Assembly: GCA_026984795.1 (NCBI GenBank)
Contig: JALSRK010000008.1
Span: forward strand, 1 to 64,000
Origin: Solibacteraceae bacterium
Lineage (GTDB): Bacteria; Acidobacteriota; Terriglobia; Bryobacterales; Bryobacteraceae
Direction of reading: 5' to 3'
Length of the DNA: 64,000 nucleotides
Shown here: one piece after another, positions 40,073 through 53,932 of the stretch
Numbering within the stretch: position 1 is the first letter of the stretch
Layout of the letters: each line of letters begins with the position of its first letter
Program-made: the position numbers and the translations under genes
The notes under the pieces: generated by a model
The model's input: the letters and a program-made list of their open reading frames with translations, nothing else
What the model was told of the DNA's origin: nothing
Database searches by the model: none

Positions 40073-41428
40073 ATGAAGCGTCTGCAGCCGGTCATCTGGT
40101 CGAAAGGGACCTTTCTGACGCCCCAACACCTGCAGCTCCAGGACCGGTATGCCGAAAGCTCCCTCCAGTTTCGGTTGGAAGCCCTGAACTTCCGGCCCTG
40201 GGGGTTCCTCGATCTCCAGATCGCCCAGGAGAGCCTGGCCGGGGGGAATCTGGCGATCGCTTCGGCCCGCGGGATCTTCCCCGACGGCTTGCTCTTCGAT
40301 ATCCCCGATTCCGACCCGCCTCCGGCCCCGAAAGCCCTCCAGCCCTACTTCGAGGAAGGCGTCGAGGAAGTGGTGTTCGCTTTGGCCATTCCGCCGCACC
40401 TGGAGCGGGGTTTGAACATCTCTTCGAACTCCAGCGGGGCCGATACGCGGTATATCGCCGAGGTGACCACCGTCCGCGACGAAATTTCGGCGCGCACGGA
40501 AAAGCCGTTGCAAATCGCCCGGAAGAACTTCCGGCTGCTGGCTGAAAACGAGCTCCGGCGCGGCACCCCGGCTTTGAAGCTCGCCCGGGTGCGCAAGACC
40601 GAGGCGGGCGCTTACGAGCTCGACGCCGCCTTTGTGCCGCCGCTGCTCGACATCGGCGCCAGCAACCTGCTGGTCTCCATCGCCCGGCGGCTGGTGGAGA
40701 TCCTTACCGCCAAGAGCGCCCAGCTCTCCGGCACGCGGCGGCAGAAGAACCAGAGCCTGGCCGAGTTCACGGCCTCCGACGTGGCCCACTTCTGGCTGCT
40801 TTACACGGTGAATACCCACTTGCCGCTGGTCCGGCACATCTTCGAGACCCGGCGGGGCCACCCCGAAGCTCTTTACGAGCTCATGCTCGGGCTTACCGGG
40901 GCCCTGACGACCTTTTCGCTCGAGGTCCGGCCGCGGGATCTGCCGACTTACGACCACGACAACCTCGGCGAATGCTTCGCCGTACTCGACGAGATTCTTC
41001 GCCGGCTGCTCGAGACCGTGATTCCGGCGAACTTCGTGGCTCTGCCGCTCAAGCTCGTGCGGCCTTCTATCTGGGCCACCGCGCTTGACGACGACCGCTA
41101 TCTCAGAAACACCAAGATGTATCTCGCCATCCGGGCCGAGATGGGCGAGGCGGACCTGATCGCCAAGGCGCCGCAGCTCGTCAAGGTTTGCTCCGCCAGC
41201 CACATCGAGCACCTGGTGAAGCAGGCCCTCCCGGGCGTGCAACTGAGCCATGTGCCTCGGCCGCCGAGCGCGATCCCGGTGAAGCTGAACTACCAGTACT
41301 TCAGCTTGAACCAATCGGGTCTCGCCTGGGAGGCCATCGGCCGAGCCCGGAACCTGGCCGCCTATGTGCCCGGGGACTTCCCGGAGCCGCAGCTCGAACT
41401 CGTCATCCTTCTGCCGCAGGCGGCTTGA
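40073..41428 (+). CDS. tssK: Type VI secretion baseplate protein TssK (copy 1)
   Basis: A 451-aa TssK/ImpJ/VasE homologue. TssK is the baseplate subunit that joins the TssEFG wedge to the TssJLM membrane complex. The N-terminus (VIWSKGTFLTPQHLQLQDRY) is the classic TssK opening, and GIFPDGLLFDIPD matches the shell domain. The central four-helix region includes GHPEALYELMLGLTGALTTF and YDHDNLGECF. It is separated from the rest of the type VI genes by two opposite-strand genes and overlaps the methyltransferase gene tail to tail by 26 bp. A second, clearly diverged TssK lies at 44884. Confidence 0.9.
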   Translation: MKRLQPVIWSKGTFLTPQHLQLQDRYAESSLQFRLEALNFRPWGFLDLQIAQESLAGGNLAIASARGIFPDGLLFDIPDSDPPPAPKALQPYFEEGVEEVVFALAIPPHLERGLNISSNSSGADTRYIAEVTTVRDEISARTEKPLQIARKNFRLLAENELRRGTPALKLARVRKTEAGAYELDAAFVPPLLDIGASNLLVSIARRLVEILTAKSAQLSGTRRQKNQSLAEFTASDVAHFWLLYTVNTHLPLVRHIFETRRGHPEALYELMLGLTGALTTFSLEVRPRDLPTYDHDNLGECFAVLDEILRRLLETVIPANFVALPLKLVRPSIWATALDDDRYLRNTKMYLAIRAEMGEADLIAKAPQLVKVCSASHIEHLVKQALPGVQLSHVPRPPSAIPVKLNYQYFSLNQSGLAWEAIGRARNLAAYVPGDFPEPQLELVILLPQAA

Positions 41429-42917
41429 AGCCCTCCGCTTCCAAGAAGCCTGAGCCCGCCAGAGAGCGCAGCAGAGCGGTGAACTCCGCCGGGCCGATCC
41501 GCTCGTGGATCAGACCTTCCCGCCGGCAGAACTCGTAGATCTGCCGGCCGGTGCGCGGCTGCGTGCACTCGGCCAGGACCTGCGCCGTCCACGGCTGGAT
41601 TCCGGACTCGGCGCGGAAGGGATAGTCCGTGCTCACCGTGATGCCGGTGACGGCGACGCCTTCCCTCTCGAACGCGTGCTCTGAGGTCATGCGGCACTGC
41701 GGCGAAGTCCGGTAGCGGGATTCCAGCAGCACTCGTTCGAAGCCCGGGGCGGCGGACCGGCCGAGCCACTCCATCATCCAGGCGATCTCCGCCGGTCCCG
41801 TGCGGGGTCCGGCCACGCAGCGGTTCAGGAACGGGGGGCGCGAGGAATCGGCATGCTTCTCGACGACGAGCATCCCGTGGCAGAAGGAGCGGACGCCGGC
41901 CTGTTCGAAGCGCCGGAGCAGCTCCCGCGCCTCTTCCGGAGAACGCTGTCCCCGGAAGGCGAGACTGGAGGCAAGGGCTTCCGGGGGAAACGTGTCGATC
42001 TCGACGAACAGGAGGTCGAAGGCTTCCGCCTCGCCGCCCAGCCATTCCCGCGCCCGGCGCTCGAAACTCTTCTCGTTGAGATCCAAGCCCGTGGTCAGGC
42101 AGTAGAGCCGCCCGCCGGGCGCGAGGACCTTCGGAGCGCCGGCCACGACGCCGTGCGAGATCGCCTCTCCGGCTTCACCGGCGTCGCGGAAGGTCCATTT
42201 GGAGCGGAGCGCCGGCACGTAGGGCGGATGAGCGACGATGCGGTCGAACTCGAGTCCTTCCACCGGCTCGTAGAGGTCGCCTTCGACGGCGTGGAAGTTC
42301 TCCAGGCCGTTCAGACGGGCGTTGAATCGTGCGAAGTGCGCCGCCCGCGCCAGCACGTCGGCCGCCCAGGCCTGCCGGGCGACGCCGCTCGCCGCCGCCG
42401 AGAGCGCCGCTACGCCGGTTCCGGCGCAGAGGTCCAGGAGGCGGTCGCAGGGAGTCCGGGGCAGCAGCCGGAGAAACTCGCCCGTGGCCTTCGTGATCGC
42501 CGGGTAAACGGCGTCGGCCGGAGCCTGATACGGCCCGCCTCCCGGCGCGCAGTGCCGGTCGGAGACCAGCAGCACGCCCTCGCATGGCGCGAGCATGACC
42601 GGTGAGAGGAGCCGGCCGGCCGCCGAGGGATCCTTGTCCAATAACCCCAGCCGCCCCATGGCCTCCGTGATCGCGCCTGGGATCGCCGCGTCCCATTCGG
42701 CCTTCGGAACCGACTCTCCGAGCACGTACAGCCGGGCCAGCAGCCCCAGGCGGGATTCGCGATCCGCGCCCTCGACGCGGCCCCTGCCGCCCAGGACCTC
42801 GTAGAGCTTTCCCACGCCTGCCGTCCGGCAGAGAGGCTCGGGGGCGAACCCGGCGCCGGTAAGGAAATCGCGGACCTGTTCGAAGTCGTCAGAAGATCCG
42901 AATCGAAGAGGAAACAA
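41403..42917 (-). CDS. SAM-dependent methyltransferase (HemK/PrmC-like fold) of unknown substrate
   Basis: A 504-aa class I methyltransferase. An N-terminal helical domain (about 1-145) precedes the Rossmann domain, where LLDLCAGTGVAAL (motif I) and IVAHPPYVPA (the NPPY-like motif IV, with the Asn replaced by His) lie. A C-terminal domain (about 310-504), perhaps winged-helix near the end, completes it. The NPPY motif is usual in enzymes that methylate amide or exocyclic nitrogens of proteins, RNA or DNA; the loss of Asn makes the substrate uncertain. It starts 21 bp after the FTRLF-repeat gene and is probably cotranscribed with it. Confidence 0.72.
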   Translation of the reverse strand: MFPLRFGSSDDFEQVRDFLTGAGFAPEPLCRTAGVGKLYEVLGGRGRVEGADRESRLGLLARLYVLGESVPKAEWDAAIPGAITEAMGRLGLLDKDPSAAGRLLSPVMLAPCEGVLLVSDRHCAPGGGPYQAPADAVYPAITKATGEFLRLLPRTPCDRLLDLCAGTGVAALSAAASGVARQAWAADVLARAAHFARFNARLNGLENFHAVEGDLYEPVEGLEFDRIVAHPPYVPALRSKWTFRDAGEAGEAISHGVVAGAPKVLAPGGRLYCLTTGLDLNEKSFERRAREWLGGEAEAFDLLFVEIDTFPPEALASSLAFRGQRSPEEARELLRRFEQAGVRSFCHGMLVVEKHADSSRPPFLNRCVAGPRTGPAEIAWMMEWLGRSAAPGFERVLLESRYRTSPQCRMTSEHAFEREGVAVTGITVSTDYPFRAESGIQPWTAQVLAECTQPRTGRQIYEFCRREGLIHERIGPAEFTALLRSLAGSGFLEAEGFKPPAAEG

Positions 42918-42938: not shown

Positions 42939-44669
42939 CTAGTCTTTCAGCACGAAGTACAGTACCACGGCCACGGCGATGAGGAACAAGGCGATGAGCG
43001 TCACGATCAGCCAGACCGGCACGCCCTTGCGAGGCGGTTCGGGCTCGGGCTCCTGCGGCGCGCTTTCGGCGGCCGGCTGCTGTTCGGCTCCGGCCACGGC
43101 CCCCGCCTGAATGATGCGCGTGAAGTCACTGGGCCCTTCTTCCTCCATGACCTCGCCGGCAGGTTCAGGCTCCGGCTCGGGAGCGGTCCGGAAGGCCTGG
43201 GTGGCGTCGGCGCTCGCTGACGCGGCCGGCGGAGCGGCCATCTTGAAAAGCCGAGTGTATTCGCCGGGTTCTTCTTTCTTCTTATCCGGAGCCGGGAGCG
43301 GCTCGGCCTGGGAGAGATCTTTCCTCGCCAGTTCGCCCTCGGCCAGCGGTGAGTGGAACATCGCGTCGAACTCATCCTGTTTGGCGCCGCCGGGAGGCGT
43401 CGCGGGGCCGGGCGTGCGGGCCTGCTCCATGAGGCGGGTGAATTCGCCCGGCTCCTGGGTTTGCTTGTCGGGCCGGGAGATCTCTTGCGGGACGTCCACG
43501 GACTGGAACAGGCGCGTGAAGTCTCCGGGCTCTTGTTTCTCTTGCGGCCGCGGGGCTGCCGGCATCGCATCCTGGGTGGGGAGGCGTTCGCCTGCCTCGA
43601 AGAGCCGGGTGAACTCACCCGCGTCTGGTTTCTGACCTGGCGCAGCTTTTTGAGGGGGCGGTTGCGCCGGCGGCTCCGGCCTCTTGGCGGCGGGCATCGC
43701 CGGCTCGGTGGGCAAGCTGCCGGGTTCGGCCTGGAAGAGCCGGGTAAACTCGCCGGCGTCCTCGGGCGGCGGCGGGCCTGCGGGCTGGGGTTCCGGCTTG
43801 GCCGCCTTGGGTTCCGGAGCGGGAGACTTGCCAGCGGCGGGAGCGGACCCTGTCTGAAACAGTCGGGTGAACTCGCCGGCGTCCTGCGTGGGCTGGGACG
43901 CGGGTTGGTCGGCCGTCTCCTCGGGGGAGGCTTCGGGCTTCCTGGCGGCGGGCATCGCCGGCTCGGTGGGCAAGCTGCCGGGTTCGGCCTGGAACAAACG
44001 GGTGAACTCTCCCGCATCCTGTTCGGGTTGGGGCGGCGCTTTTTCGGCGGGCGGTTCGGCAGCAGGCTCCGGCTTGCCGGCCACCGGCATGGCCGGCTCG
44101 GTGGGCAAGCTGCCGGGTTCGGCCTGGAAGAGCCGGGTGAACTCGCCGGCGTCCTCGGGCGGCGGCGGGCCCGCGGGCTGGGGTTCCGGCTCGGCCGCCT
44201 TGGGTTCCGGAGCGGGAGACTTGCCAGCGGCGGGAGCGGACCCTGTCTGAAACAGTCGGGTGAACTCGCCGGCGTCCTGCGTGGGCTGGGACGCGGGTTG
44301 TTCGACCGGCTCCTCAGGGGAAGCTTCGGGCTCCTCGGCGGCGGGCGGCGCCTCGGCCTTCGGCGCCTCGGCTGGTTCACTGGGTTGGGCCGGAGCGGGT
44401 TCGGCCTGGAACAGCCGGGTGAACTCGCCGGCGTCTGTGCCGCCCCCGGGCGGCGGAGCAGGCCCCGTCCCCGGACCGGCAGGCTTCAGCGGCGCCGGGC
44501 GCAGCGGCTCTTCGGGGGCGGAAGCGAGGTCCGTTTTCTCACCGCCGGCCTCCCCGGCTCCCGCCTTCAGTCTGTCGATGGGCGGGATCCGCCACATGCC
44601 GACCCGCGCCAGCGGATCATCCCCCGCCTTGCCCTGGCCTTCCGGATGTCGCTTCTCCTCGTCGGCCAC
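42939..44669 (-). CDS. Tail-anchored Pro/Ala/Glu-rich protein with about twelve FTRLF-type motifs
   Basis: A 576-aa protein I cannot assign to a characterised family. Nearly all of it is low-complexity Pro/Ala/Glu sequence, probably disordered, carrying a motif about every 30-70 residues: seven copies of DAGEFTRLF, then PGDFTRLF, PGEFTRLM, QDEFDAMF, PGEYTRLF and PSDFTRII. A single membrane helix ends the protein (VPVWLIVTLIALFLIAVAVV, then LYFVLKD). The array would therefore hang in the cytoplasm from a C-terminal tail anchor. I chose GTG 44667-44669, six bp after GGAGG; a GTG at 44690 is possible but has no ribosome site. It sits between two tssK genes, on the other strand. A role in type VI assembly or its regulation by the nearby kinase is inference. 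Confidence 0.75.
   Translation of the reverse strand: MADEEKRHPEGQGKAGDDPLARVGMWRIPPIDRLKAGAGEAGGEKTDLASAPEEPLRPAPLKPAGPGTGPAPPPGGGTDAGEFTRLFQAEPAPAQPSEPAEAPKAEAPPAAEEPEASPEEPVEQPASQPTQDAGEFTRLFQTGSAPAAGKSPAPEPKAAEPEPQPAGPPPPEDAGEFTRLFQAEPGSLPTEPAMPVAGKPEPAAEPPAEKAPPQPEQDAGEFTRLFQAEPGSLPTEPAMPAARKPEASPEETADQPASQPTQDAGEFTRLFQTGSAPAAGKSPAPEPKAAKPEPQPAGPPPPEDAGEFTRLFQAEPGSLPTEPAMPAAKRPEPPAQPPPQKAAPGQKPDAGEFTRLFEAGERLPTQDAMPAAPRPQEKQEPGDFTRLFQSVDVPQEISRPDKQTQEPGEFTRLMEQARTPGPATPPGGAKQDEFDAMFHSPLAEGELARKDLSQAEPLPAPDKKKEEPGEYTRLFKMAAPPAASASADATQAFRTAPEPEPEPAGEVMEEEGPSDFTRIIQAGAVAGAEQQPAAESAPQEPEPEPPRKGVPVWLIVTLIALFLIAVAVVLYFVLKD
43701..43907. repeat. Internal 207-bp duplication, copy A
   Basis: This stretch is nearly identical to 44094-44300, with about three mismatches by eye (for example GGGTA/GGGTG and GCCTG/GCCCG). 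The offset is 393 bp, or 131 codons, so frame is kept. It encodes two FTRLF motifs and the linkers between them. The similarity is recent enough to suggest unequal recombination inside the gene. Confidence 0.8.
44094..44300. repeat. Internal 207-bp duplication, copy B
   Basis: Partner of the repeat at 43701-43907. A shorter third copy of its first part (the segment encoding LPTEPAMPA and the preceding motif) lies near 43951-44010. Confidence 0.8.
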
Positions 44670-44813
44670 TGAACTCCTCCGAAGAATCACACCGGTCCGG
44701 CCGCCGCCGGCCGAATTCCCGGGTCTTGCCCCTTATCAATAGTGACACCGACTCCGCCCGGATTCAATGACTGCCTCCAGAGCCCGAGTTAGCGGAATCC
44801 GCGGCGCCGCACT

Positions 44814-44819: not shown

Positions 44820-44883
44820 ACGAAACGGCGGGCACTGCACCGGAACAGGCACGCGGCTCGCACGCCGATCGACCGAGTGGGAC

Positions 44884-46236
44884 ATGAAGCAGCTTTCCAG
44901 GGTCGTCTGGTCGGAGGGGATGCACCTGGCGCCCCACCATTTCCAGGCGCAATCCCGCTATTACGAAGACACGATCCACTTCGCCACTTCGGCTCTCTGG
45001 TTCGCTCCGTACGGTTTCTCGGGCTGGGAACTGGATGCGGAGGCATTGAAGAACGGTACGGTCTCTGTCGTCCACGCCCGGGGCCTGTTTCCGGATGGGC
45101 TGCCGTTCCACCTGCCGGAATGCGATCCGCCGCCGCCGCCGCGAAACATCACCGACGATTTTTCCCCGGTGGCTGACCGGCTGCTCGTCTATCTCGGTGT
45201 GCCCGGGCGGCGGGAGGATGGCCCCACCTGCGTCCTGGAGTCCGGGGCCGCCAATCCCAGCGCGCGTTACGTCGCCGAACCCCAGACGATCCCGGACGAA
45301 AACACGGGGCGTGACGAAAAGGTCGTTCGGGTGGGGCGGAAGAACCTGAGGCTTTACTTGGAGGACGAGCTGAGCGAGGACGTCATGGCCATGCCGCTGG
45401 CGCGGATCATGCGCGACGGGGCGGGGCATTTCGTCTACGACCCGGAGTTCATCCCGCCATGCCTGAAGATCAGCGCCAGTCCGCGGCTCACACAGATCCT
45501 GACCCGCCTGTTGGATGTGCTCGAGGACAAGAGCGCCACCCTCGCTCCGGAAGCCGCCGGGGGCGAAGCCGCGGCCACCTTTTCCCAGCGCGAGGTGGCC
45601 GGTTTCTGGTTCCGGCACTCGGTGAACAGCGCCCTCTCCTCGTTGCGGAACCTGTGCCTGGTCAAGCAGGGCCATCCTGAAGAGGCCTACATGGAGCTGG
45701 CCCGGCTCGCCGGGGCCCTCTCGACCTTCGCCTTGGACGCTACGCCGGCCGACATTCCACTGTACGACCACGACCACCTCGACCGGTGCTTCGGCGAGTT
45801 GGACGAGCGCATCCGCTTTCATCTGGAGACCGTGCTGCCCACCAACTGCGTGTCAATCGCGCTCGCGCCGACCCAGAATTACTTCTACGCCGGTAAGATC
45901 ACTGACGCCCGGGTCTTCGGCCGCTCGCGGTGGATCTTCTCGATCCGTTCCCGTATCGGCGAGGCGGAGCTGATCCGGCTCACGCCGCAACTGGTGAAAA
46001 TCTGCTCCCGGGCCTTCATCGGCAAGCTCGTGGAGCGGGCCTTGCCGGGCCTGACGCTCACCCATTTGCCGGTGCCGCCCTCGGCGGTGGCTCCCAAAGT
46101 GGAGCGCCAGTACTTCGCGATCGCCAAGGCCGGGCCGTGTTGGGAACACATGGTAAAGACCAGGGAGGTGGGCGTTTACGTCCCGGGCGAGCTGCCGAGC
46201 CCCGAAATCGGCATTCATGTCATTCTGGGGGCTTGA
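44884..46236 (+). CDS. tssK: Type VI secretion baseplate protein TssK (copy 2)
   Basis: A 450-aa TssK homologue. It starts KQLSRVVWSEGMHLAPHHFQ, closer than copy 1 to the usual TssK N-terminus. GLFPDGLPFHLPE, GHPEEAYMELARLAGALSTF and YDHDHLDRCFGELDERI line up with copy 1. The two proteins share the fold and key segments but differ widely elsewhere, so they are old paralogs rather than a recent copy. I chose the ATG at 44884 because similarity begins there. tssL follows after 20 bp, then tssM and a kinase, forming one likely operon. Confidence 0.92.
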   Translation: MKQLSRVVWSEGMHLAPHHFQAQSRYYEDTIHFATSALWFAPYGFSGWELDAEALKNGTVSVVHARGLFPDGLPFHLPECDPPPPPRNITDDFSPVADRLLVYLGVPGRREDGPTCVLESGAANPSARYVAEPQTIPDENTGRDEKVVRVGRKNLRLYLEDELSEDVMAMPLARIMRDGAGHFVYDPEFIPPCLKISASPRLTQILTRLLDVLEDKSATLAPEAAGGEAAATFSQREVAGFWFRHSVNSALSSLRNLCLVKQGHPEEAYMELARLAGALSTFALDATPADIPLYDHDHLDRCFGELDERIRFHLETVLPTNCVSIALAPTQNYFYAGKITDARVFGRSRWIFSIRSRIGEAELIRLTPQLVKICSRAFIGKLVERALPGLTLTHLPVPPSAVAPKVERQYFAIAKAGPCWEHMVKTREVGVYVPGELPSPEIGIHVILGA

Positions 46237-46256
46237 ATTCTTGAAGGGGAGTGGAG

Positions 46257-46991
46257 ATGGCTGGAGGAGAACATGCCGTCGCGGCGCAACCGCGGCGTTC
46301 CGTATCCCGTGAGCCGAACCTGGCGTACCTCTACCAGGAAGTCTTCACGGCGATCGTCCGCCTGCGCACCAACCGCCAGAGCGTCACCGACGCCGAGGCC
46401 TTCCGCGTCCACATGCGGCAGCTGATCGGCGCCGCCGAGAAGAACGCCCAGGCCCGCGGCTACACGCTCGAGGACATTCGCCTGGCCACTTTCGCCGCGG
46501 TGGCTTTCCTGGACGAGTCGGTTCTGAATCTGCGGGACTCCGCGGTCTTCGCCGACTGGCCGCGCCGCCCGATGCAGGAAGAGCTGTTCGGCGGCCACGT
46601 CGCCGGCGAGCTCTTCTTTCAGACGCTGGACCGGCTTCTCGGCCGCGGCGATTCCACCGAAACCGCCGACGTCCTCGAGGTCTTCCACCTCAGCCTGCTG
46701 CTCGGCTACCGGGGCAAGTACGGCATCGGCGGGCAGGCGGAACTCGACGCGCTGATGCGGAACATCGGCGACAAGATCCGCCGCATCCGCAAGGATCAGG
46801 GGTGGTTCTCTCCCGCCTGGGCCCCCGTGGGAACCCTGGCGACGGCGCAGCAGGACCCCTGGATCAAACGTCTCGCGATCACTGCCGGCGTCTGCCTGAT
46901 CGTGGCTTTGCTGCTGTTCGCCGGCTACCGGTTCTCTCTCGCTTCCGGCGTGGGGGACCTGGTAGCCCTGGTCACCCAAGTGAGGAGCTGA
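46257..46991 (+). CDS. tssL: Type VI secretion protein TssL (DotU/IcmH family)
   Basis: A 244-aa inner-membrane protein of the type VI membrane complex. The cytoplasmic DotU domain (about 20-190) shows AYLYQEVFTAIVRLR, LATFAAVAFLDESVL and FHLSLLLGYRGKYG, all family landmarks. One C-terminal helix (about 205-225, RLAITAGVCLIVALLLFAGY) anchors it, and no peptidoglycan-binding OmpA domain follows. The ATG at 46257 has a GGGGAG site; the in-frame GTG 6 bp upstream is less likely. It lies between tssK2 and tssM, 6 bp before tssM. Confidence 0.92.
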   Translation: MAGGEHAVAAQPRRSVSREPNLAYLYQEVFTAIVRLRTNRQSVTDAEAFRVHMRQLIGAAEKNAQARGYTLEDIRLATFAAVAFLDESVLNLRDSAVFADWPRRPMQEELFGGHVAGELFFQTLDRLLGRGDSTETADVLEVFHLSLLLGYRGKYGIGGQAELDALMRNIGDKIRRIRKDQGWFSPAWAPVGTLATAQQDPWIKRLAITAGVCLIVALLLFAGYRFSLASGVGDLVALVTQVRS

Positions 46992-46997
46992 TCCGCC

Positions 46998-49900
46998 ATG
47001 TCGCTGTACGCCATCCTCAGCCTCCTGATGCTCGTCTACATGACGCTCGTTTTCTTCGCCGGGACCTTTCTGGGGCTCCAGGGCAGCGACCTGTGGATCT
47101 TCCGCGCCATGATGGCGCTGATCGGCGTCCTCGGCATGGCCGTCTACCTCTGGTATTACTTCAAGAGCGTCCGTCCGCAGCGCCTCAAAAGGGACAAGCA
47201 GGGGGGCGGGGAAGCCGAAAAAGGCGACCGCGAAACGGACTATCTGATCAAGGAGGCCGAGTCGCGGCTGGCTTCCGCCGAGCTGGGCGGCAAGGCCAAG
47301 ATCGCCAACCTTCCCGTCTTGCTCGTCACCGGCAAGCCCGGTTCGGCGAAGACTTCCACGCTGGTACATTGCGGTCTCCATCCGGAGCTGATCGCCGGAC
47401 AGGTCTGGAGCGGCGACCTGATCGCCCCGACGGCCTCGGCCAACATCTGGTTCGCCGAGAGGTCGGTCTTCGTAGAGGCCGGCGGCAAACTGCTGGCGCG
47501 CCGGAACGCCTGGAAACGGCTGTTGAAGAAACTTCGGCCGCGCACGCTGAGTGCGGTGTTCGGAGCCCGGCGGGACGCTCCCCGGGCCGCCCTCGTTTGC
47601 GTTTCCTCCGAGGAGTTCCTTCAGGCCGGCTCTTCGGACGCCTTGGCCGGCCGGGCGCGGGAGCTGCGCCAGCGCCTCGAAGAAGCCTCGCAGGCGTTTG
47701 GCGTCCGGCTCCCGGTTTACGTGCTCTTCACCAAAGCGGACCGCATCGCTTTTTTCGCCGAGTACGCCCGGAATCTTCAGGATGAAGAAACCGGCCAGGT
47801 GGTGGGCGTCACCGTTCCGGCCGATGCGGCCTCCGGCGACGGCATTTATACCGAGCGCCAGACCCGGCTGCTCCAGCGGTACTTCGACAACCTGATCTAC
47901 ACGCTGTGCGACCGCCGCACGGACCTGCTCTCGCGGGAGCGGGACGAGAACGCCCGGGCCGGCATCTACGAGTTTCCCCGGGAGCTGCGCAAGCTGCGAC
48001 AGAACCTGGTGCAGTTCCTCGTCGATCTTTGCCGGCCGAGCCAGTTGCGCGCCGGCCCCTTCCTGCGGGGCTTCTATTTTTCCGGCGTCCGCGCCATCGT
48101 GGTCCGGGAGGCGGCCGAGCGGCCCCGCGCCGCCGATCGGGGAGCCCGGGAGATCGACGCGGCGACGATGGTGTTTACCACCGAGGAGGCCCGCAAGGCG
48201 GCCAGGGAGGGGCGCCCGGCGGTGGCCCGCAAAAAGCCCCAGTGGATCTTCCTCTCGCATCTGTTCAAGGACGTCATCCTCGCCGACGGCCTGTCCAACG
48301 AAGGCGCGGGCGCGAGCGTCAAAGCCAACCGCATCCGGCGGATTCTGCTCGCCACCGCCGGCTTCATGCTCGTCTTCTGGATGGTGGCCTTGACCGTCTC
48401 CTTCTTCGGCAACCGCCGCCTGGAGACCGAGGTGATGGAGTCGGTGCAAGGGATCGGCGAGGCGGAAGCGGCGGCGGGCGCATTGCCCTCCGTGGACGCC
48501 CTGACCCGGCTCGAGACCGTCCGCCAGGCGCTGGAACGGCTCACGCAGTATCGCATCGACGGCCCGCCGTGGCGGCTCCGCTGGGGGCTCTATATCGGCA
48601 ACGACCTCTACCCGGCCGTCCGCCGCGTCTACTACAGCCGGTTCCACCAGCTCCTGTTCGCCGACACGCAGGCGAACCTACTGGCCACCCTGCAGCGTCT
48701 GCCGGACCGTCCGTCGCCCACCGACGAATACCAGCCGATCTACAACACCTTGAAGGCGTACTTGATCACCACCTCGCATCCCGACAAGAGCTCGCCGGAA
48801 TTCCTCACGCCGGTCCTGATGGAGCATTGGGTGCGGCACCGGGATGTGGACGAGGAGCGCCGCAATCTGGCCGAGCGGCAGTTCGCCTTCTATGCCGCCG
48901 ACCTGCTGAACTCCAATCCCTTCTCTGAGGAGAACGACCAGCTCGCCATCGAGCGCGGCCGCCGGTACCTCTCCCAGTTTGCCGGCGTGGAGCGCGTCTA
49001 CCAGTTCATGATCGCGGAGGCTTCCCGGCAGAACCCCTCCATCAACTTCAACCGGATGTTCCCCGGCTCGGCGGCGGTGGTGGTGAACAACCGCGAGGTG
49101 CCGGGGGCGTTCAGCAAGAACGGCTGGGCCTTCATGCAGGACGCCCTCAAGAACGCCGACCGCTTCTTCGGAGGCGAGGAGTGGGTGCTGGGCAAGCAGC
49201 CCGCCGCCCGGATGGACCCGGGCCAGCTGGCCGCCCAGCTCGCCGAACGATACCGCAGGGAGTTCATCGAGCAGTGGCGGGAATACTTGCGGGATACCCG
49301 CGTGGTCCGCTACCGGAGCCTCGCCGATGCGGCGAAGAAGCTCGGCGTGCTCTCCGGGGCGCAGTCCCCGCTGCTGGCGGCGCTGTGGCTGGCCTCCCGG
49401 AACACCGCCGTCGATTCCGAGGACATGAAGAAAGTGTTCCAGCCGGTGCAGTACGTGGTGCCGCCGGAGAGCGAGGACCGGTTCATCGGCGACTCGAACG
49501 CCGCCTACATGCAGGCGCTGCTCGGGTTGCAGAGCGCCGTCGAGCAGGCCGCCGGGGCGGGATCGAACCGCGACGCCTTCGTCGCCCAGATCAACGCCCA
49601 GGCGGCCCAGGCCAAGGTCACCACCCGGCAGCTCGCCCAGAACTTCCGGGTGGATCCGCAGACCCGGATCGGCCCCACCGTCGAGCAGCTTCTCGAACGG
49701 CCCATCGTCTACGCCGAGGCGCTCGTCCGCGCGCTCGGCCCTGCCGAGTTGAACGCCAAGGGGCGGGCGCTGTGCTCTCAGTTCCACGCCCTGATGCGGA
49801 AGTACCCGTTCCGGCCCGACGCCGCTCAAGAAGCCACGCTCGCCGAGGTCGCGGCGATCTTCCAGCCCGGCGCCGGCGCTCTGTGGACGTTCTATGAGGA

Positions 49901-50468
49901 AGATCTCAGAGAGTACCTGATCCGCCAGGGCGGCCTCTTCGCCCAGAAACCCGGCAGCAAGATCCGCATCAACCCGGCGTTCATCAACTTTTTCAATCGC
50001 GCCGCCGTCTTCTCCGAGGCGCTCTATCCGGCGGGTTCCACCGAGCCGAAGCTGGCTTTCAAACTCACCGGTCACCCGGCCGAGGGAATCCGGCGGATCC
50101 GCCTGACTATCGAGAACCAGACTCTGACCATCGGACGCCGGCCTGCCTCGCTGGTCTTCGTCTGGCCCGGCAACCGCAACCAGCGGGTGTCGCTGACCGG
50201 CCAGTTCGGAGGCGGGCCGGAGCTGGCGTTCACTTCCTATCAGGGCTTGTGGGCCGTCTTCCGCTTTTTCGGCGACGCCGACCGGTGGCAGACGGCCGGC
50301 AACGTCCACAAGCTGGAGTGGATTCTCCGCCAGGGGCGCGCCGGACGGCCCCTGACACTGCCCGACGGGCGGCCCCTGACCGTGCGGTTCGATCTGGAGG
50401 CCGCCGCACCGGTGTTTTCCAAAGACTTCTTGGCGAGCCTGCGCTGCGTCTCCACCGTGGCCCGCTGA
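46998..50468 (+). CDS. tssM: Type VI secretion membrane-complex protein TssM (IcmF)
   Basis: A 1156-aa inner-membrane protein. Two N-terminal helices (about 4-26 and 35-58) lead into a cytoplasmic ATPase-like domain with the Walker A-like VTGKPGSAKTS (about 110-120). A third helix (about 448-470, LLATAGFMLVFWMVALTVSF) leads to the large periplasmic part (about 475-1150), including the C-terminal beta domain typical of IcmF. TssM spans the periplasm and links TssL to the outer-membrane TssJ; no TssJ-like lipoprotein is seen here. The kinase gene begins 22 bp downstream. Confidence 0.95.
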   Translation: MSLYAILSLLMLVYMTLVFFAGTFLGLQGSDLWIFRAMMALIGVLGMAVYLWYYFKSVRPQRLKRDKQGGGEAEKGDRETDYLIKEAESRLASAELGGKAKIANLPVLLVTGKPGSAKTSTLVHCGLHPELIAGQVWSGDLIAPTASANIWFAERSVFVEAGGKLLARRNAWKRLLKKLRPRTLSAVFGARRDAPRAALVCVSSEEFLQAGSSDALAGRARELRQRLEEASQAFGVRLPVYVLFTKADRIAFFAEYARNLQDEETGQVVGVTVPADAASGDGIYTERQTRLLQRYFDNLIYTLCDRRTDLLSRERDENARAGIYEFPRELRKLRQNLVQFLVDLCRPSQLRAGPFLRGFYFSGVRAIVVREAAERPRAADRGAREIDAATMVFTTEEARKAAREGRPAVARKKPQWIFLSHLFKDVILADGLSNEGAGASVKANRIRRILLATAGFMLVFWMVALTVSFFGNRRLETEVMESVQGIGEAEAAAGALPSVDALTRLETVRQALERLTQYRIDGPPWRLRWGLYIGNDLYPAVRRVYYSRFHQLLFADTQANLLATLQRLPDRPSPTDEYQPIYNTLKAYLITTSHPDKSSPEFLTPVLMEHWVRHRDVDEERRNLAERQFAFYAADLLNSNPFSEENDQLAIERGRRYLSQFAGVERVYQFMIAEASRQNPSINFNRMFPGSAAVVVNNREVPGAFSKNGWAFMQDALKNADRFFGGEEWVLGKQPAARMDPGQLAAQLAERYRREFIEQWREYLRDTRVVRYRSLADAAKKLGVLSGAQSPLLAALWLASRNTAVDSEDMKKVFQPVQYVVPPESEDRFIGDSNAAYMQALLGLQSAVEQAAGAGSNRDAFVAQINAQAAQAKVTTRQLAQNFRVDPQTRIGPTVEQLLERPIVYAEALVRALGPAELNAKGRALCSQFHALMRKYPFRPDAAQEATLAEVAAIFQPGAGALWTFYEEDLREYLIRQGGLFAQKPGSKIRINPAFINFFNRAAVFSEALYPAGSTEPKLAFKLTGHPAEGIRRIRLTIENQTLTIGRRPASLVFVWPGNRNQRVSLTGQFGGGPELAFTSYQGLWAVFRFFGDADRWQTAGNVHKLEWILRQGRAGRPLTLPDGRPLTVRFDLEAAAPVFSKDFLASLRCVSTVAR

Positions 50469-50490: not shown

Positions 50491-52266
50491 ATGGACGAGC
50501 CCAAACGCATCGGCAAATACGAGCTCCGGGAATACCTCGGAGGCGGCATGGCCCGTGTCTACAAGGCCTGGGACACGGTAATGAGCCGCATCGTCGTCGT
50601 CAAGGTGCTCAAGCCGGACGCCGCCCGCGATCCGGACTCGAAAGCCCGGTTTCTGCGCGAAGCCCAGACCGCCGGCGGCCTGACCCACGACAACGTCATC
50701 CGCGTCTACGACTTCGGCGAAGAGGACGGCGCCCCGTACATGGTGATGGAGTATCTCGAGGGCCGGGACCTGGCCGAGGCGATCCGCACCGGGGAGGCCG
50801 GCGACCTGGCCCGCCGCCTCCAGATCGCCCTGGAGGCGGCCCGGGCGCTCGAGTACATCCACCGCCACGACATCATCCACCGCGACATCAAGCCGGAAAA
50901 CATCCACGTCGATACCAGCGGGCGGGTCCGGCTCATCGACTTCGGCATCGCCAAGCGTCCGGAGATGAGCCTGACGCGGACCGGCTTCACCCTAGGCACC
51001 CCCTATTACATGGCCCCCGAGCAGGTTTGCGGCGAGTCGGTCACGGTGAGGACCGATATCTACGCCTACGGCATCCTGCTCTACGAGCTGCTCGCGGGGA
51101 CCAAGCCGTACCAGGGCGAGAAGATCGAGCAACTCTTCTACAAGATCCTCAACGAGCCGGTGGATCTCGCCCCGCTCCGGGCCCAGGGCGTTCCGGACTC
51201 CGTGTGTGCGCTCATCGAACGGTGCACGGCGAAGGACCCGGCGGGGCGCCCGGAGTCGATGTCAGAGGTCTGCACGGTGCTCGAGCAGGCGCTGGCCGGT
51301 CTCGGGCGGGCGCCGGCGGCGCCAGGCTTTCAGGCCGGTCCGGCGCCGGCCTCGTTGCCGACCCAGGCGCCGCCCCGGGCGCCCACAGCCATCCGCGAGA
51401 CAGGGCCGGCCGCTCCCGCAGCCCCCCCGCCCGTGGCGCCGCCGAAACCGTCCCGGGGCAGGCCGAAGTGGTTGCTGCCGGTGGTGGCCGGCGGGATCGT
51501 AGTGGTCCTCGTCGTCTTGTTTGTCGTCTTGCGCCCGACGGCGCCTACCGTCGTGGAGAAGCCCATCGTACCTCCGAAGCCCGAGCTGGCCGGCACGATC
51601 GCCACCCCTACCGGCGAGATGATTCTCATCCCGGCCGGTGAGTTCCTGTTCGGCCCCGATGCCCGGCCCGAGACACTGCCCGCTTACTATATCGACAAGA
51701 CGGAAGTCACGAATGGAACCTGGAGAAAGTACTGCGAAGCCGTCAACCGGCCTTTGCCCAAGGACTTCCCTGACAACAGGCCGGACTTGCCGGTGGTGAA
51801 CATCACCTTTGACGAGGCGCAGGCCTTTGCCCGGTGGGCGGGCAAGCGCCTGCCGAACGCCCGGGAGTGGGAGAAGGCGGCCCGGGGGACGGACGGCCGG
51901 CCCTACCCCTGGGGCTCCGAGCACGACCCCTCGCGGGCCAATGTCCAGGACAACCCCGGTCTGGGCGAACCGGGCCTGCTGCCGGCCGCCTCCTTCGCTA
52001 TCGGGGCCAGCCCGTACGGGGTGCTCCAGATGGCGGGGAACGTGTGGGAGTTCGTCGCCGAACGGGTGACCCCCAGCGATCAGGCCCTGAAGGTCTTCGC
52101 CGGGCTGCTCGAGCCGCCGCCGCGCCGCGACGAGCCTTGGTACACGATCCGCGGCGGTTCCTACTCCCAGCCGTTGCCCAAGAACGTCACGTTCGAGTGG
52201 GGAGCCGTGCCGGCGCGCTTCCAGGGCCCGGATATCGGCTTCCGCTGCGTGAAAGAAGTCCCGTAA
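50491..52266 (+). CDS. Transmembrane Ser/Thr protein kinase with C-terminal FGE-sulfatase-like domain (PpkA-like)
   Basis: A 591-aa PknB-type kinase. The kinase domain (about 8-275) has a glycine loop (YLGGGMARVYKAWD), catalytic Lys38, HRDIKPEN with Asp about 132, DFG at about 150-152 and the GTPYYMAPE segment. A Pro/Ala-rich linker and one membrane helix (about 326-348) follow. The external part (about 370-591) is an FGE-sulfatase/C-lectin-like domain (EMILIPAGEFLFGPD, KRLPNAREWEKAARG, GFRCV). Its only evident Cys near the end is the structural one, so it probably binds ligand rather than making formylglycine. Its place after tssM suggests it is the PpkA-type controller of this type VI system. 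Confidence 0.88.
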   Translation: MDEPKRIGKYELREYLGGGMARVYKAWDTVMSRIVVVKVLKPDAARDPDSKARFLREAQTAGGLTHDNVIRVYDFGEEDGAPYMVMEYLEGRDLAEAIRTGEAGDLARRLQIALEAARALEYIHRHDIIHRDIKPENIHVDTSGRVRLIDFGIAKRPEMSLTRTGFTLGTPYYMAPEQVCGESVTVRTDIYAYGILLYELLAGTKPYQGEKIEQLFYKILNEPVDLAPLRAQGVPDSVCALIERCTAKDPAGRPESMSEVCTVLEQALAGLGRAPAAPGFQAGPAPASLPTQAPPRAPTAIRETGPAAPAAPPPVAPPKPSRGRPKWLLPVVAGGIVVVLVVLFVVLRPTAPTVVEKPIVPPKPELAGTIATPTGEMILIPAGEFLFGPDARPETLPAYYIDKTEVTNGTWRKYCEAVNRPLPKDFPDNRPDLPVVNITFDEAQAFARWAGKRLPNAREWEKAARGTDGRPYPWGSEHDPSRANVQDNPGLGEPGLLPAASFAIGASPYGVLQMAGNVWEFVAERVTPSDQALKVFAGLLEPPPRRDEPWYTIRGGSYSQPLPKNVTFEWGAVPARFQGPDIGFRCVKEVP

Positions 52267-52393: not shown

Positions 52394-53923
52394 TTGATCG
52401 ACGCCCGTGACACTCTTGGCCGGCACGAGATCCTGCTGATCGGGGCCAACGGCTTTCTCGGCAAGGTGCTTCTCGCCTTGCTCCTGGCCCGCTTTCCGCA
52501 TTTCCGGCATCTGCACGTCGTCATGCGCCCGAAGCGCCGGCTTTCACCGCAACAGCGCTTCGAGCGGGAGGTGCTCGCTTCGCCCCCGCTCGAAGCGGTG
52601 CTGGAGCGCTTCGGCCGCTCGCGGATCCCGGAACGGATTACGGTGCATGCGGGCGACCTCGGCGAACCGGACTGCGGGCTGAGCGAGGAAGCTCTGGAGG
52701 CGCTGGCCGGCCGCGTGGGGCTGGTGATCAACTGCGCCGGACTGGTGGAGTTCTTCCCTCCGGTAGACGATTCGTTCGCCACCAACGTGGACGGCGTCGA
52801 GCACGTGATCGGGCTGGTGCGCCGCTTGGGGGCGAAGCTGCTCCACGTTTCCACGTGCTTCGTCTGCGGCGAGGCCGACGGGCTGATCGAGGAGTCCGAG
52901 CCGATCCTGGGCTTCTACCCCCGCCGCAAGGGGCCCCGGGACCAGGGCTTCCGCCACGACCGCGAGATCCGCTACATGCGCGAGCGGATCGCCGAGATCT
53001 ACCACGCCGCCGGTCTGAATCGAGGCGACCGCCGCCCCCGGGAAATCACCCAGAAGCTCAGCGACCTCGGCCTGCAGCGCGCCTATCAGTGGGGCTGGAC
53101 CAACACCTACACGTATACAAAGAGCCTCGGCGAACAACTCATCGCGGCTGAGGAAGACCTGGAATACGCCATCGTGCGGCCAGCGATCGTGGAAGCGGCT
53201 CTCGAGTTCCCGCTGCCGGGTTGGGTCGAGGGAGGCCGCACCGCCGTGCCGCTGGTGATGATGGCGATGAGCGGGTTGCGCCACTGGGCGGTGCGCGAAG
53301 ACGCCCCGATGGAGGTCGTGCCGGTCGACCTCGCCGTCTCGGCGATTCTGATCGCCGGGGTCATGTTGCTGAACGGCTGTGCCGAGCAGGTCTACCATGT
53401 CTCGACGGCCGACGTGAATCCCATCTACTACGGCGACCTCATCCGGATGCTCTACCGCGAGTACCGGCGCCGCCGGAGGAGCGGCAACGGGGGGTTTCGT
53501 TTGCCGGTCCCCCCTCTGGGCGTACGCGTGCTCACGCCGGAAGAGGCCCGGCGGCGGGGCGAACTCCAGCAGAAGACGATCACCTTGCTGCAGCAGTGGG
53601 CCACCGACACCCGCCGGCTGATGGAGCGCAACGGCCTGCCTGGCGTCCAGGGTGTCCGGCGTCTGGCGACGCGCCTGCGCCAAACCGGTCTTCGCATCAT
53701 GGTGCGGGACCAGGCCCTCGACCTCTACCGGCCTTTCATGCACGACAACCGGTTCATCTTCGAGAGTGAAAACATCCGCGCCGCCTGGCGCCGGCTGAGG
53801 GAAGAAGACCAGCGTAAGCTGCCCTGGAACCCCGAACAGATCGATTGGCGCGATTACTGGATCAACCGGGAAGTGGAAGGCGTCAGGAAGTGGGTCCGGG
53901 CCGAGTCTGCGCTCGGCGTTTGA
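52394..53923 (+). CDS. Fatty acyl/thioester reductase (NAD_binding_4, male-sterility-type SDR)
   Basis: A protein of about 509 aa that should reduce an acyl thioester to aldehyde or alcohol with NADPH. The N-terminal Rossmann motif is IGANGFLGKVLL (about 14-25). VINCAGLVEFF and LLHVSTCFV are family strands, and YTKSLGE (near 240) provides the catalytic Tyr and Lys. The C-terminal 150 residues form the usual FAR-type helical extension. No ATG fits; TTG 52394 has AAAGGAG 10 bp upstream, and TTG 52352 is an alternative. It is first in the lipid operon, 9 bp before the ligase gene, so it may act on acyl groups activated by that enzyme. Confidence 0.82.
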   Translation: MIDARDTLGRHEILLIGANGFLGKVLLALLLARFPHFRHLHVVMRPKRRLSPQQRFEREVLASPPLEAVLERFGRSRIPERITVHAGDLGEPDCGLSEEALEALAGRVGLVINCAGLVEFFPPVDDSFATNVDGVEHVIGLVRRLGAKLLHVSTCFVCGEADGLIEESEPILGFYPRRKGPRDQGFRHDREIRYMRERIAEIYHAAGLNRGDRRPREITQKLSDLGLQRAYQWGWTNTYTYTKSLGEQLIAAEEDLEYAIVRPAIVEAALEFPLPGWVEGGRTAVPLVMMAMSGLRHWAVREDAPMEVVPVDLAVSAILIAGVMLLNGCAEQVYHVSTADVNPIYYGDLIRMLYREYRRRRRSGNGGFRLPVPPLGVRVLTPEEARRRGELQQKTITLLQQWATDTRRLMERNGLPGVQGVRRLATRLRQTGLRIMVRDQALDLYRPFMHDNRFIFESENIRAAWRRLREEDQRKLPWNPEQIDWRDYWINREVEGVRKWVRAESALGV

Positions 53924-53932
53924 GTCGCGGAA

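Follow-up and report, generated by a model that had tools for sequence, protein, structure and literature searches.

In type VI secretion systems (T6SSs), TssK connects the baseplate to TssL and TssM, and each wedge of the baseplate contains two TssK trimers. In bacteria other than the one studied here, Ser/Thr phosphorylation controls these systems through Fha or TssL (PMC3953482, PMC12607579); in Agrobacterium tumefaciens, Fha was reported to bind phospho-Thr14 of TssL (PMC3953482). We analyzed a gene of a Solibacteraceae bacterium (Acidobacteriota) located within a stretch of 64,000 nucleotides, positions 1 to 64,000 of contig JALSRK010000008.1, which is referred to as the window. This gene, here called the array gene, belongs to a T6SS locus with two tssK genes, tssK1 and tssK2, and encodes a chain with spaced, Thr-centered motifs and a C-terminal membrane helix. 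On the sequence evidence compiled here, the two-TssK (TssK1 plus TssK2) T6SS subtype of soil Acidobacteriota regularly includes the array protein as an accessory.

A number of features relate the array protein to described systems and set it apart from them. (i) Like TssL of A. tumefaciens, it is predicted to be an inner membrane T6SS protein with cytoplasmic Thr sites that would recruit a T6SS partner; however, the Agrobacterium report concerns one site on a core component for which phosphorylation and FHA binding were shown (PMC3953482), whereas the array offers many sites on a dedicated protein that is characterized from its sequence. (ii) As in the PpkA-Fha condensates of Acidovorax citrulli, T6SS recruitment would be membrane linked, multivalent, and controlled by a Ser/Thr kinase, but in that case it is the kinase and Fha that form the condensates, and the parts of the study consulted describe neither a motif array nor a kinase N-lobe fragment (PMC12607579). 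(iii) The motif shares with the ETTS sequence of GarA a Glu two residues ahead of the second Thr, and the GarA Thr is phosphorylated by Ser/Thr kinases (PMC5448819). GarA, however, has one site and an FHA domain of its own (also PMC6030727, in the part consulted), whereas no FHA domain was found in the 11 array proteins scanned. (iv) The N-lobe fold of PknB-type bacterial kinases is common to array homologues, but these have the N-lobe only, without the beta3 lysine, and the window copy has none. We found no description of a motif-array protein in the open-access literature, with subscription papers and preprints outside the scope of the search. The component thus appears to be new in kind, with a predicted function; its T6SS setting and kinase N-lobe were already known, as was docking based on Thr as a concept.

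The features of the window locus are listed in Table 1. Translation bore out the description in an earlier note of this DNA, namely, twelve motifs, seven of them identical, of which 11 retain the Thr, together with one C-terminal helix. The gene starts with a GTG at 44690; a second possible start, the GTG at 44669, corresponds to the end given in the earlier note. The array gene is, as stated there, flanked by both tssK genes, but a methyltransferase gene also lies between them. The protein is rich in Pro (18.9%), Ala (16.5%), and Glu (12.3%) and has a single strongly hydrophobic segment near its C terminus. Given the Arg-Lys on the N-terminal side of this membrane helix, the positive-inside rule would place the chain in the cytoplasm. 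The window gene contains an internal duplication (135-bp period, 1.8 copies, 76% matches), and the seven identical motifs therefore overstate independent conservation, since their identity stems partly from recent duplication; the conservation of the motif across genera, described below, is independent of this duplication. Domain searches gave little. Only the membrane tail aligned with DotU/TssL (E value of 0.025, 14.7 bits, cutoff of 27), a Pfam scan of array proteins returned only subthreshold matches, mostly in the membrane tail, and there were no matches for five array proteins in NCBIfam or for four in PADLOC. The observation made in the window gene is confirmed, and it is not an oddity of that gene.

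Relatives with TssK2 matches were found in a scan of genome contigs (five loci) and correspond to Bryobacterales and Bryobacteraceae metagenome-assembled genomes and one Terriglobia metagenome-assembled genome. The same scan with the array protein itself revealed no relative, probably because its query peptide patterns were mostly nonmotif. Among 61 relatives, 31 contained TssK, and clusters of a motif DNA pattern were present in 24 of these 31 versus none of the 30 TssK-free genomes. A tssK2-type TssK was found in 25 of the 61, and an array could be read in all 25. It is beside tssK2 and divergent from it in 20, beside tssK1 only in four (G405, G412, G419, and G426), and on a different contig from the two tssK genes in the remaining one (G396). 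Six TssK-positive relatives have no tssK2 (G406, G407, G409, G411, G413, and G452), and among them an array was seen only in the incomplete G411 (62%), beside tssK1. No array was detected in the TssK loci of G406, G407, G409, and G413 by a fixed rule (at least two motif windows and more than 25% Pro plus Ala), and G452 was judged by the pattern alone.

We then considered a larger sample of 160 genomes of the family, in which a tssK2-type protein was defined by a best E value below 1e-135. This definition was satisfied by 92 genomes, 87 of which had at least two same-strand pattern matches. Arrays were read in 81 of the 92 genomes (24 from the set of 61, 55 of 64 stretches upstream of tssK2, G479 [L195], and G507 [L166]), detected by pattern matches alone in 10, and unreadable in one, G549, in which the contig ends just past tssK2. 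The 64 stretches come from the 68 genomes outside the set of 61; the fixed rule identified arrays in 53, and an N-lobe homologue lies upstream of tssK2 in another two (G460 and G486). The same rule gave no array in 26 comparison stretches. For the pattern-only genomes, the matches are beside tssK1 in G556 and G497 and on the tssK1 contig, about 18.6 kb from tssK1, in G530; the other seven have 3 to 7 matches each (G493, G477, G522, G481, G551, G529, and G495). Arrays were thus read or indicated by pattern matches in 91 of 92 tssK2-type genomes versus 1 of 50 TssK-free genomes, which substantiates the T6SS link proposed in the earlier note and argues against arrays being equally common in genomes without a T6SS. 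Fisher's test by the raw pattern count (tssK2-type versus no TssK) gave a P value of 4e-28, which is descriptive only because the genomes are related. Another 18 genomes have other TssK matches. Four of them pass the pattern count (G411, G533, G565, and G566), all with true arrays, and G476 has an array with an N-lobe adjoining two TssK genes; the remaining 13 were examined for divergent arrays only in part. The array-adjacent TssK of G476, G533, and G566 resembles tssK2 more than tssK1 and is therefore a divergent or broken tssK2 below the cutoff.

Three of the 50 TssK-free genomes pass the count, and only G534 has a real array. The pattern matches of G473, which are on two contigs, and those of G554, which are 10.7 kb apart and showed no array at the match that was read (L158), are not arrays. 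The array gene of G534 (L180, 4398-5447) encodes an N-lobe and three motifs and is either an orphan or a relic; none of six proteins of the window T6SS locus was recognizable within 18 kb of it.

The association extends beyond the family. TssK matches were found in 63 of 396 genomes of the phylum, and six genomes outside the family (G274, G113, G172, G352, G249, and G171) contain a tssK2-like protein (46 to 57% identity, two of them just above the E value cutoff) along with a second TssK. In all six, an array protein lies beside tssK2 or tssK1 (L202 to L208). The G352 array is cut by contig ends, with L205 and L206 probably being the two ends of one array, and in G171 the array is on the tssK2 contig, with none on the tssK1 contig (L209). 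Arrays of family f2 (G352, G249, and G171) have mostly GSFTQMF- or GFTSLL-like motifs. Under the same filters, no array was found in five of five single-TssK loci (L210 to L214), drawn from the 56 TssK genomes without a tssK2-type protein. A strict motif pattern matched only 3 of the 396 genomes and missed the six tssK2-type genomes with arrays; absence by pattern is therefore weak evidence. The location of the array gene within T6SS loci, together with its co-occurrence with other genes of these systems, is thus that of an accessory of the two-TssK subtype. The two TssK paralogues, which are about 40% identical, mark one T6SS subtype across several families of the phylum, and the pair of trimers in a baseplate wedge might be formed by TssK1 and TssK2.

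To analyze motif conservation, we applied a position-specific model with an unscored central (Thr) column to 28 arrays. It retrieved 237 motif windows, compared with 0 to 2 in shuffled arrays in the column tests (mean of 0.55 over 20 shuffles). The central column contained 225 T, 4 E, and 2 each of D, S, A, and M, and the next best columns were F at +3 (213/238) and F at -1 (208/244); position -2 was E in 188 and D in 21 of 244. Among 14 sequences outside model building, nine of which were reached via tssK position or the N-lobe and not by the DNA pattern, T was present in 72 of 78 windows (3 S, 2 A, and 1 E), with the limitation that some had been picked from their loci by a Thr-containing filter. 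In the arrays found by the fixed rule, the count was 418 T of 452 (9 E, 8 A, 7 D, 6 S, and four others at 1 each). The most C-terminal motif had Thr in 28 of 28 arrays, or 27 of 27 without L052, which is cut by a contig end and lacks its true terminal motif; position +3 of this copy varies (13 F, 6 I, 6 M, and 3 V). The motif mostly takes the form [DE][FY]T[RKQ][MLFVI]F and occurs in few to about twenty copies per Pro/Ala-rich chain. A hydrophobic segment lies at most nine residues from the terminus in 36 of 42 array sequences; five of the six exceptions are cut by contig ends, and the strongest segment of L066 is further in. This conservation lends support, at the level of sequence, to the repeated Thr-centered docking or phosphorylation platform envisaged in the earlier note.

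Two alternatives bear directly on these data. Firstly, the array could be a passive spacer of low complexity, or a protein enlarged by repeat expansion, without a specific partner. The Pro/Ala-rich chain and the internal duplication in the window copy would fit such a protein, but the motif columns are conserved while the linkers diverge, the co-occurrence is tight, and TssM has a related motif (see below), making this explanation barely credible. Secondly, the motif could be a phosphorylation-independent hydrophobic docking motif of the FxxPhiF type (Phi, hydrophobic residue), with a structural Thr. This idea draws on the strong retention of F at -1, a hydrophobic residue at +2, and F at +3 and on the replacement of Thr by Asp or Glu in about half of the non-Thr windows (6 of 12 in the 28 arrays and 16 of 34 in the fixed-rule arrays), including KQDEFDAMF of the window. 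We nevertheless consider it unlikely, given that Thr is the most conserved column and is seldom substituted by Ser, that the C-terminal copy keeps Thr while +3 varies, and that the TssM motif and a GATxxF half-motif lose F at -1 and retain Thr. The Asp and Glu residues may be phosphomimetic, or phosphorylation may not be needed.

Lone motif matches elsewhere (12 stretches, L183 to L194) did not reveal further arrays: none was present in the eight stretches with the motif in an open frame (L183, L185, L186, L187, L189, L190, L191, and L194), and no such frame was found in the other four. A VIT-vWA protein of G479 (L181, 4280-6880) has one PEPGEFTRMFG in a linker, which looks genuine; this protein may be a further client of the putative motif reader.

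A related motif, [GA]ATxPhiF, was detected in the variable cytoplasmic linker of TssM in 23 of 26 TssMs. In the 24 TssMs with anchors (L062 and L064 have none and were excluded from the linker density count), 22 linkers of about 58 residues contained the motif, whereas the 25,410 residues outside the linkers contained a single match. The motif or a near variant (SATGFF or SATAFF) was also found in all of another seven tssK2-type TssMs with anchors, distant ones included, so that it is present in 30 of 33 TssMs of two-TssK systems; the uncounted TssM of L198, without anchors, carries EATDLF at residue 605. TssMs of other types had no linker motif in seven of seven cases (L071, L072 [assigned by clustering], and L210 to L214). 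The TssM and array motifs share Thr, a hydrophobic residue at +2, and F at +3, and the TssM motif fits a half-motif found near the C terminus of many arrays (GATQAF and similar). A related motif in TssM suggests a docking or phosphorylation partner shared by both proteins.

Most homologues start with a domain that is lacking in the window copy, a degenerate kinase N-lobe. Over this domain of about 100 residues, 22 array proteins were aligned, and a hidden Markov model built from the array N-domains alone matched neighboring kinases at their N-lobes (E values of 5.8e-8 and weaker). For one homologue, AlphaFold2 predicted residues 1 to 90 with a predicted local distance difference test score of 88 to 96 (ten-residue means) and the strand/helix order of a kinase N-lobe; beyond the structured part, which ends near residue 93, confidence is low until a membrane helix follows. 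The best Foldseek match in the Protein Data Bank was Staphylococcus aureus PknB (4eqm; E value of 3.7e-4, probability of 1.00), no other match had an E value below 0.001, and of the 50 matches listed, nearly all are kinases by name. Four N-lobes alone gave no kinase match and nothing useful against Pfam. By eye, the beta3 Lys is absent from its column in the 22 aligned N-domains, which mostly have His. The homologues, although not the window copy, thus have the N-lobe fold of kinases, without the catalytic C-lobe and the beta3 Lys. An RxGxWKxP element similar to RVGMWRIPP of the window protein follows the N-lobe in several homologues (by eye). The N-lobe is dispensable, since it is absent from the window copy, L039, and L047 and has no match in L205, L207, and L208.

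The N-lobe raises the possibility of a kinase sink or activator, in which it would pair with a T6SS kinase and the motifs would act as competing substrates that set a threshold for phosphorylation of the TssM site. Its homology to kinases, the related TssM motif, and a kinase gene directly after tssM, as in the window, in 10 of the 21 loci in which 1.5 kb or more was covered are in line with this model. However, the N-lobe is missing in the window copy and others, and tssM has no neighboring kinase in about half of these loci, for which reasons we regard the model as highly unlikely. The latter count also speaks against the earlier suggestion that the kinase at 50491 is the specific partner.

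A further explanation is a multisite threonine phosphorylation pathway, in which a Ser/Thr kinase modifies the motifs and an FHA protein binds the phosphothreonines. In GarA, ETTS is followed by VF, and the TssM of L039 reads QATSVFRAG. The excess of Thr over Ser noted above (225 versus 2 and 418 versus 6) fits the selectivity of FHA domains for phosphothreonine. The array motif resembles the GarA phospho-motif (PMC5448819), and the acid at -2 fits the acidic preference of mycobacterial kinases at -2 to -5 (PMC6030727). The window genome has two FHA domains, one in an FHA-GAF-SpoIIE protein and the other in a protein of 270 residues whose gene closes a T6SS cluster (tssG, clpV, vgrG, and a PAAR-M91 gene) on another contig; in G426, an FHA gene adjoins tssK1. 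By the phosphate contact positions of FHA structures, the R, S, and N contacts are intact in four related FHA proteins. In the window genome protein (L091, 8532-9344; G000:C6), Gly-Arg is kept, and Asp and Lys occupy the Ser and Asn contacts. Moreover, T6SS-linked or full-length matches to this protein are sporadic, occurring in about 5 of 25 tssK2 genomes (G000, G402, G403, G426, and G438), and an FHA search of G405 and G410, which have arrays, retrieved a single FHA domain each. FHA as a universal reader, one of the candidates in the earlier note, is weakened by these sporadic genes and the degenerate window FHA, and the pathway as a whole seems rather unlikely to us. The same T6SS cluster of the window genome contains, beside vgrG and the gene for a PAAR-peptidase M91 protein, a gene for a calpain-family (C2) protease (L091, 3845-7832); these are likely T6SS effectors.

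Taken together, we regard the array protein as a multivalent docking comb that is tethered to the membrane in the two-TssK T6SS and shares a partner with TssM, a reading on which our confidence is evenly divided; the readings considered here overlap in part, and so do the confidences attached to them. The chain would face the cytoplasm as a comb of ligands holding many copies of one T6SS partner, would keep this partner close to the TssL-TssM complex at the inner membrane, and, as the system assembles, would pass it on to the single site in TssM. The array travels with tssK2, along with tssL and tssM, and we therefore propose that the motif is read by TssK2 or TssK1, the most likely readers; the partner would then be this baseplate adaptor. 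The strictness of the Thr suggests a binding switch operated by Ser/Thr phosphorylation, and the motif Thr is probably phosphorylated. The N-lobe would dock a kinase through N-lobe pairing. Tentatively, these elements would define an undescribed core-like component in which comb and TssM site form a Thr-switched hand-over that recruits baseplates through TssK2 or TssK1, with the pseudokinase N-lobe as the kinase dock.

Several observations weigh against this proposal. (i) Three of the 26 TssMs (L064, L065, and L066) have no linker motif despite an array. (ii) Positions -2 and -1 are GA in the TssM motif but EF in the array motif. Since the TssM motif is without the acid and the F ahead of the Thr, a reader common to both, although probable, is something that we infer. 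(iii) Among 85 windows from the 14 held-out sequences, 22 have Ser in place of the acidic residue at -2. (iv) The N-lobe is missing from three arrays, the window copy included, and without a match in those of family f2. (v) G534 retains an array without a detectable TssK. (vi) The counts are not independent events because the TssMs are homologous and arrays duplicate internally. (vii) TssK is put forward as a candidate reader on the grounds of co-occurrence. The interpretation in the earlier note is thus supported in part; it did not mention the kinase-like N-lobe of most homologues, the related motif in TssM, or the association with two-TssK systems.

Table 1. Coordinates of the T6SS locus and of the array gene elements in the window
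Feature	Positions	Strand	Evidence or remark
tssK1	40073-41428	+	Pfam T6SS_VasE, E 3.5e-139; NCBIfam TssK, E 7.1e-128
Methyltransferase gene (MTS, DUF7059-like), between array gene and tssK1	41403-42917	-	Not present in all loci
Array gene, tail-anchored	42939-44690	-	Open reading frame and translation, 583 residues
RVGMWRIPP element	44580-44606	-	
DAGEFTRLF, first four of seven	44409-44435, 44250-44276, 44127-44153, 43992-44018	-	
DAGEFTRLF, other three	43857-43883, 43734-43760, 43599-43625	-	The seven span 43599-44435
Five variant motifs (EPGDFTRLF, EPGEFTRLM, KQDEFDAMF, EPGEYTRLF, GPSDFTRII)	43506-43532, 43428-43454, 43356-43382, 43245-43271, 43110-43136	-	Asp replaces Thr in 43356-43382
Half-motif DATQAF	43191-43208	-	In addition to the 12 motifs
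C-terminal membrane helix (tail anchor)	42948-43016	-	Arg-Lys on N-terminal side
tssK2	44881-46236	+	Divergent from array gene; Pfam, E 3.6e-129
tssL	46251-46991	+	DotU, E 1.8e-47
tssM	46998-50468	+	IcmF-related, E 3.2e-61; NCBIfam TssM, E 7.9e-126
DAATMVF motif in cytoplasmic linker of TssM	48156-48176	+	Related to array motif
Ser/Thr kinase fused to FGE-sulfatase-like domain	50491-52266	+	Pkinase, E 9.1e-52; FGE, E 1.2e-36

Two further observations concern the neighborhood of the array gene. The methyltransferase gene of the window shares 26 bases with the 3' end of tssK1, and 12 of the clustered loci also contain such a gene. Immediately downstream of the kinase gene, positions 52394 to 56707 contain acyl-reductase-like (Male sterility) and AMP-binding/acyltransferase genes.

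The way in which the T6SS membrane complex is joined by the baseplate and the control of this step by phosphorylation are only partly understood. The array protein is a component of a new form that accompanies one T6SS subtype across several families of the phylum, and the motif, through its Thr, its multiplicity, and its related copy in TssM, leads to concrete, testable predictions. In addition, the array provides a sequence marker by which two-TssK systems can be told apart from those with a single TssK.

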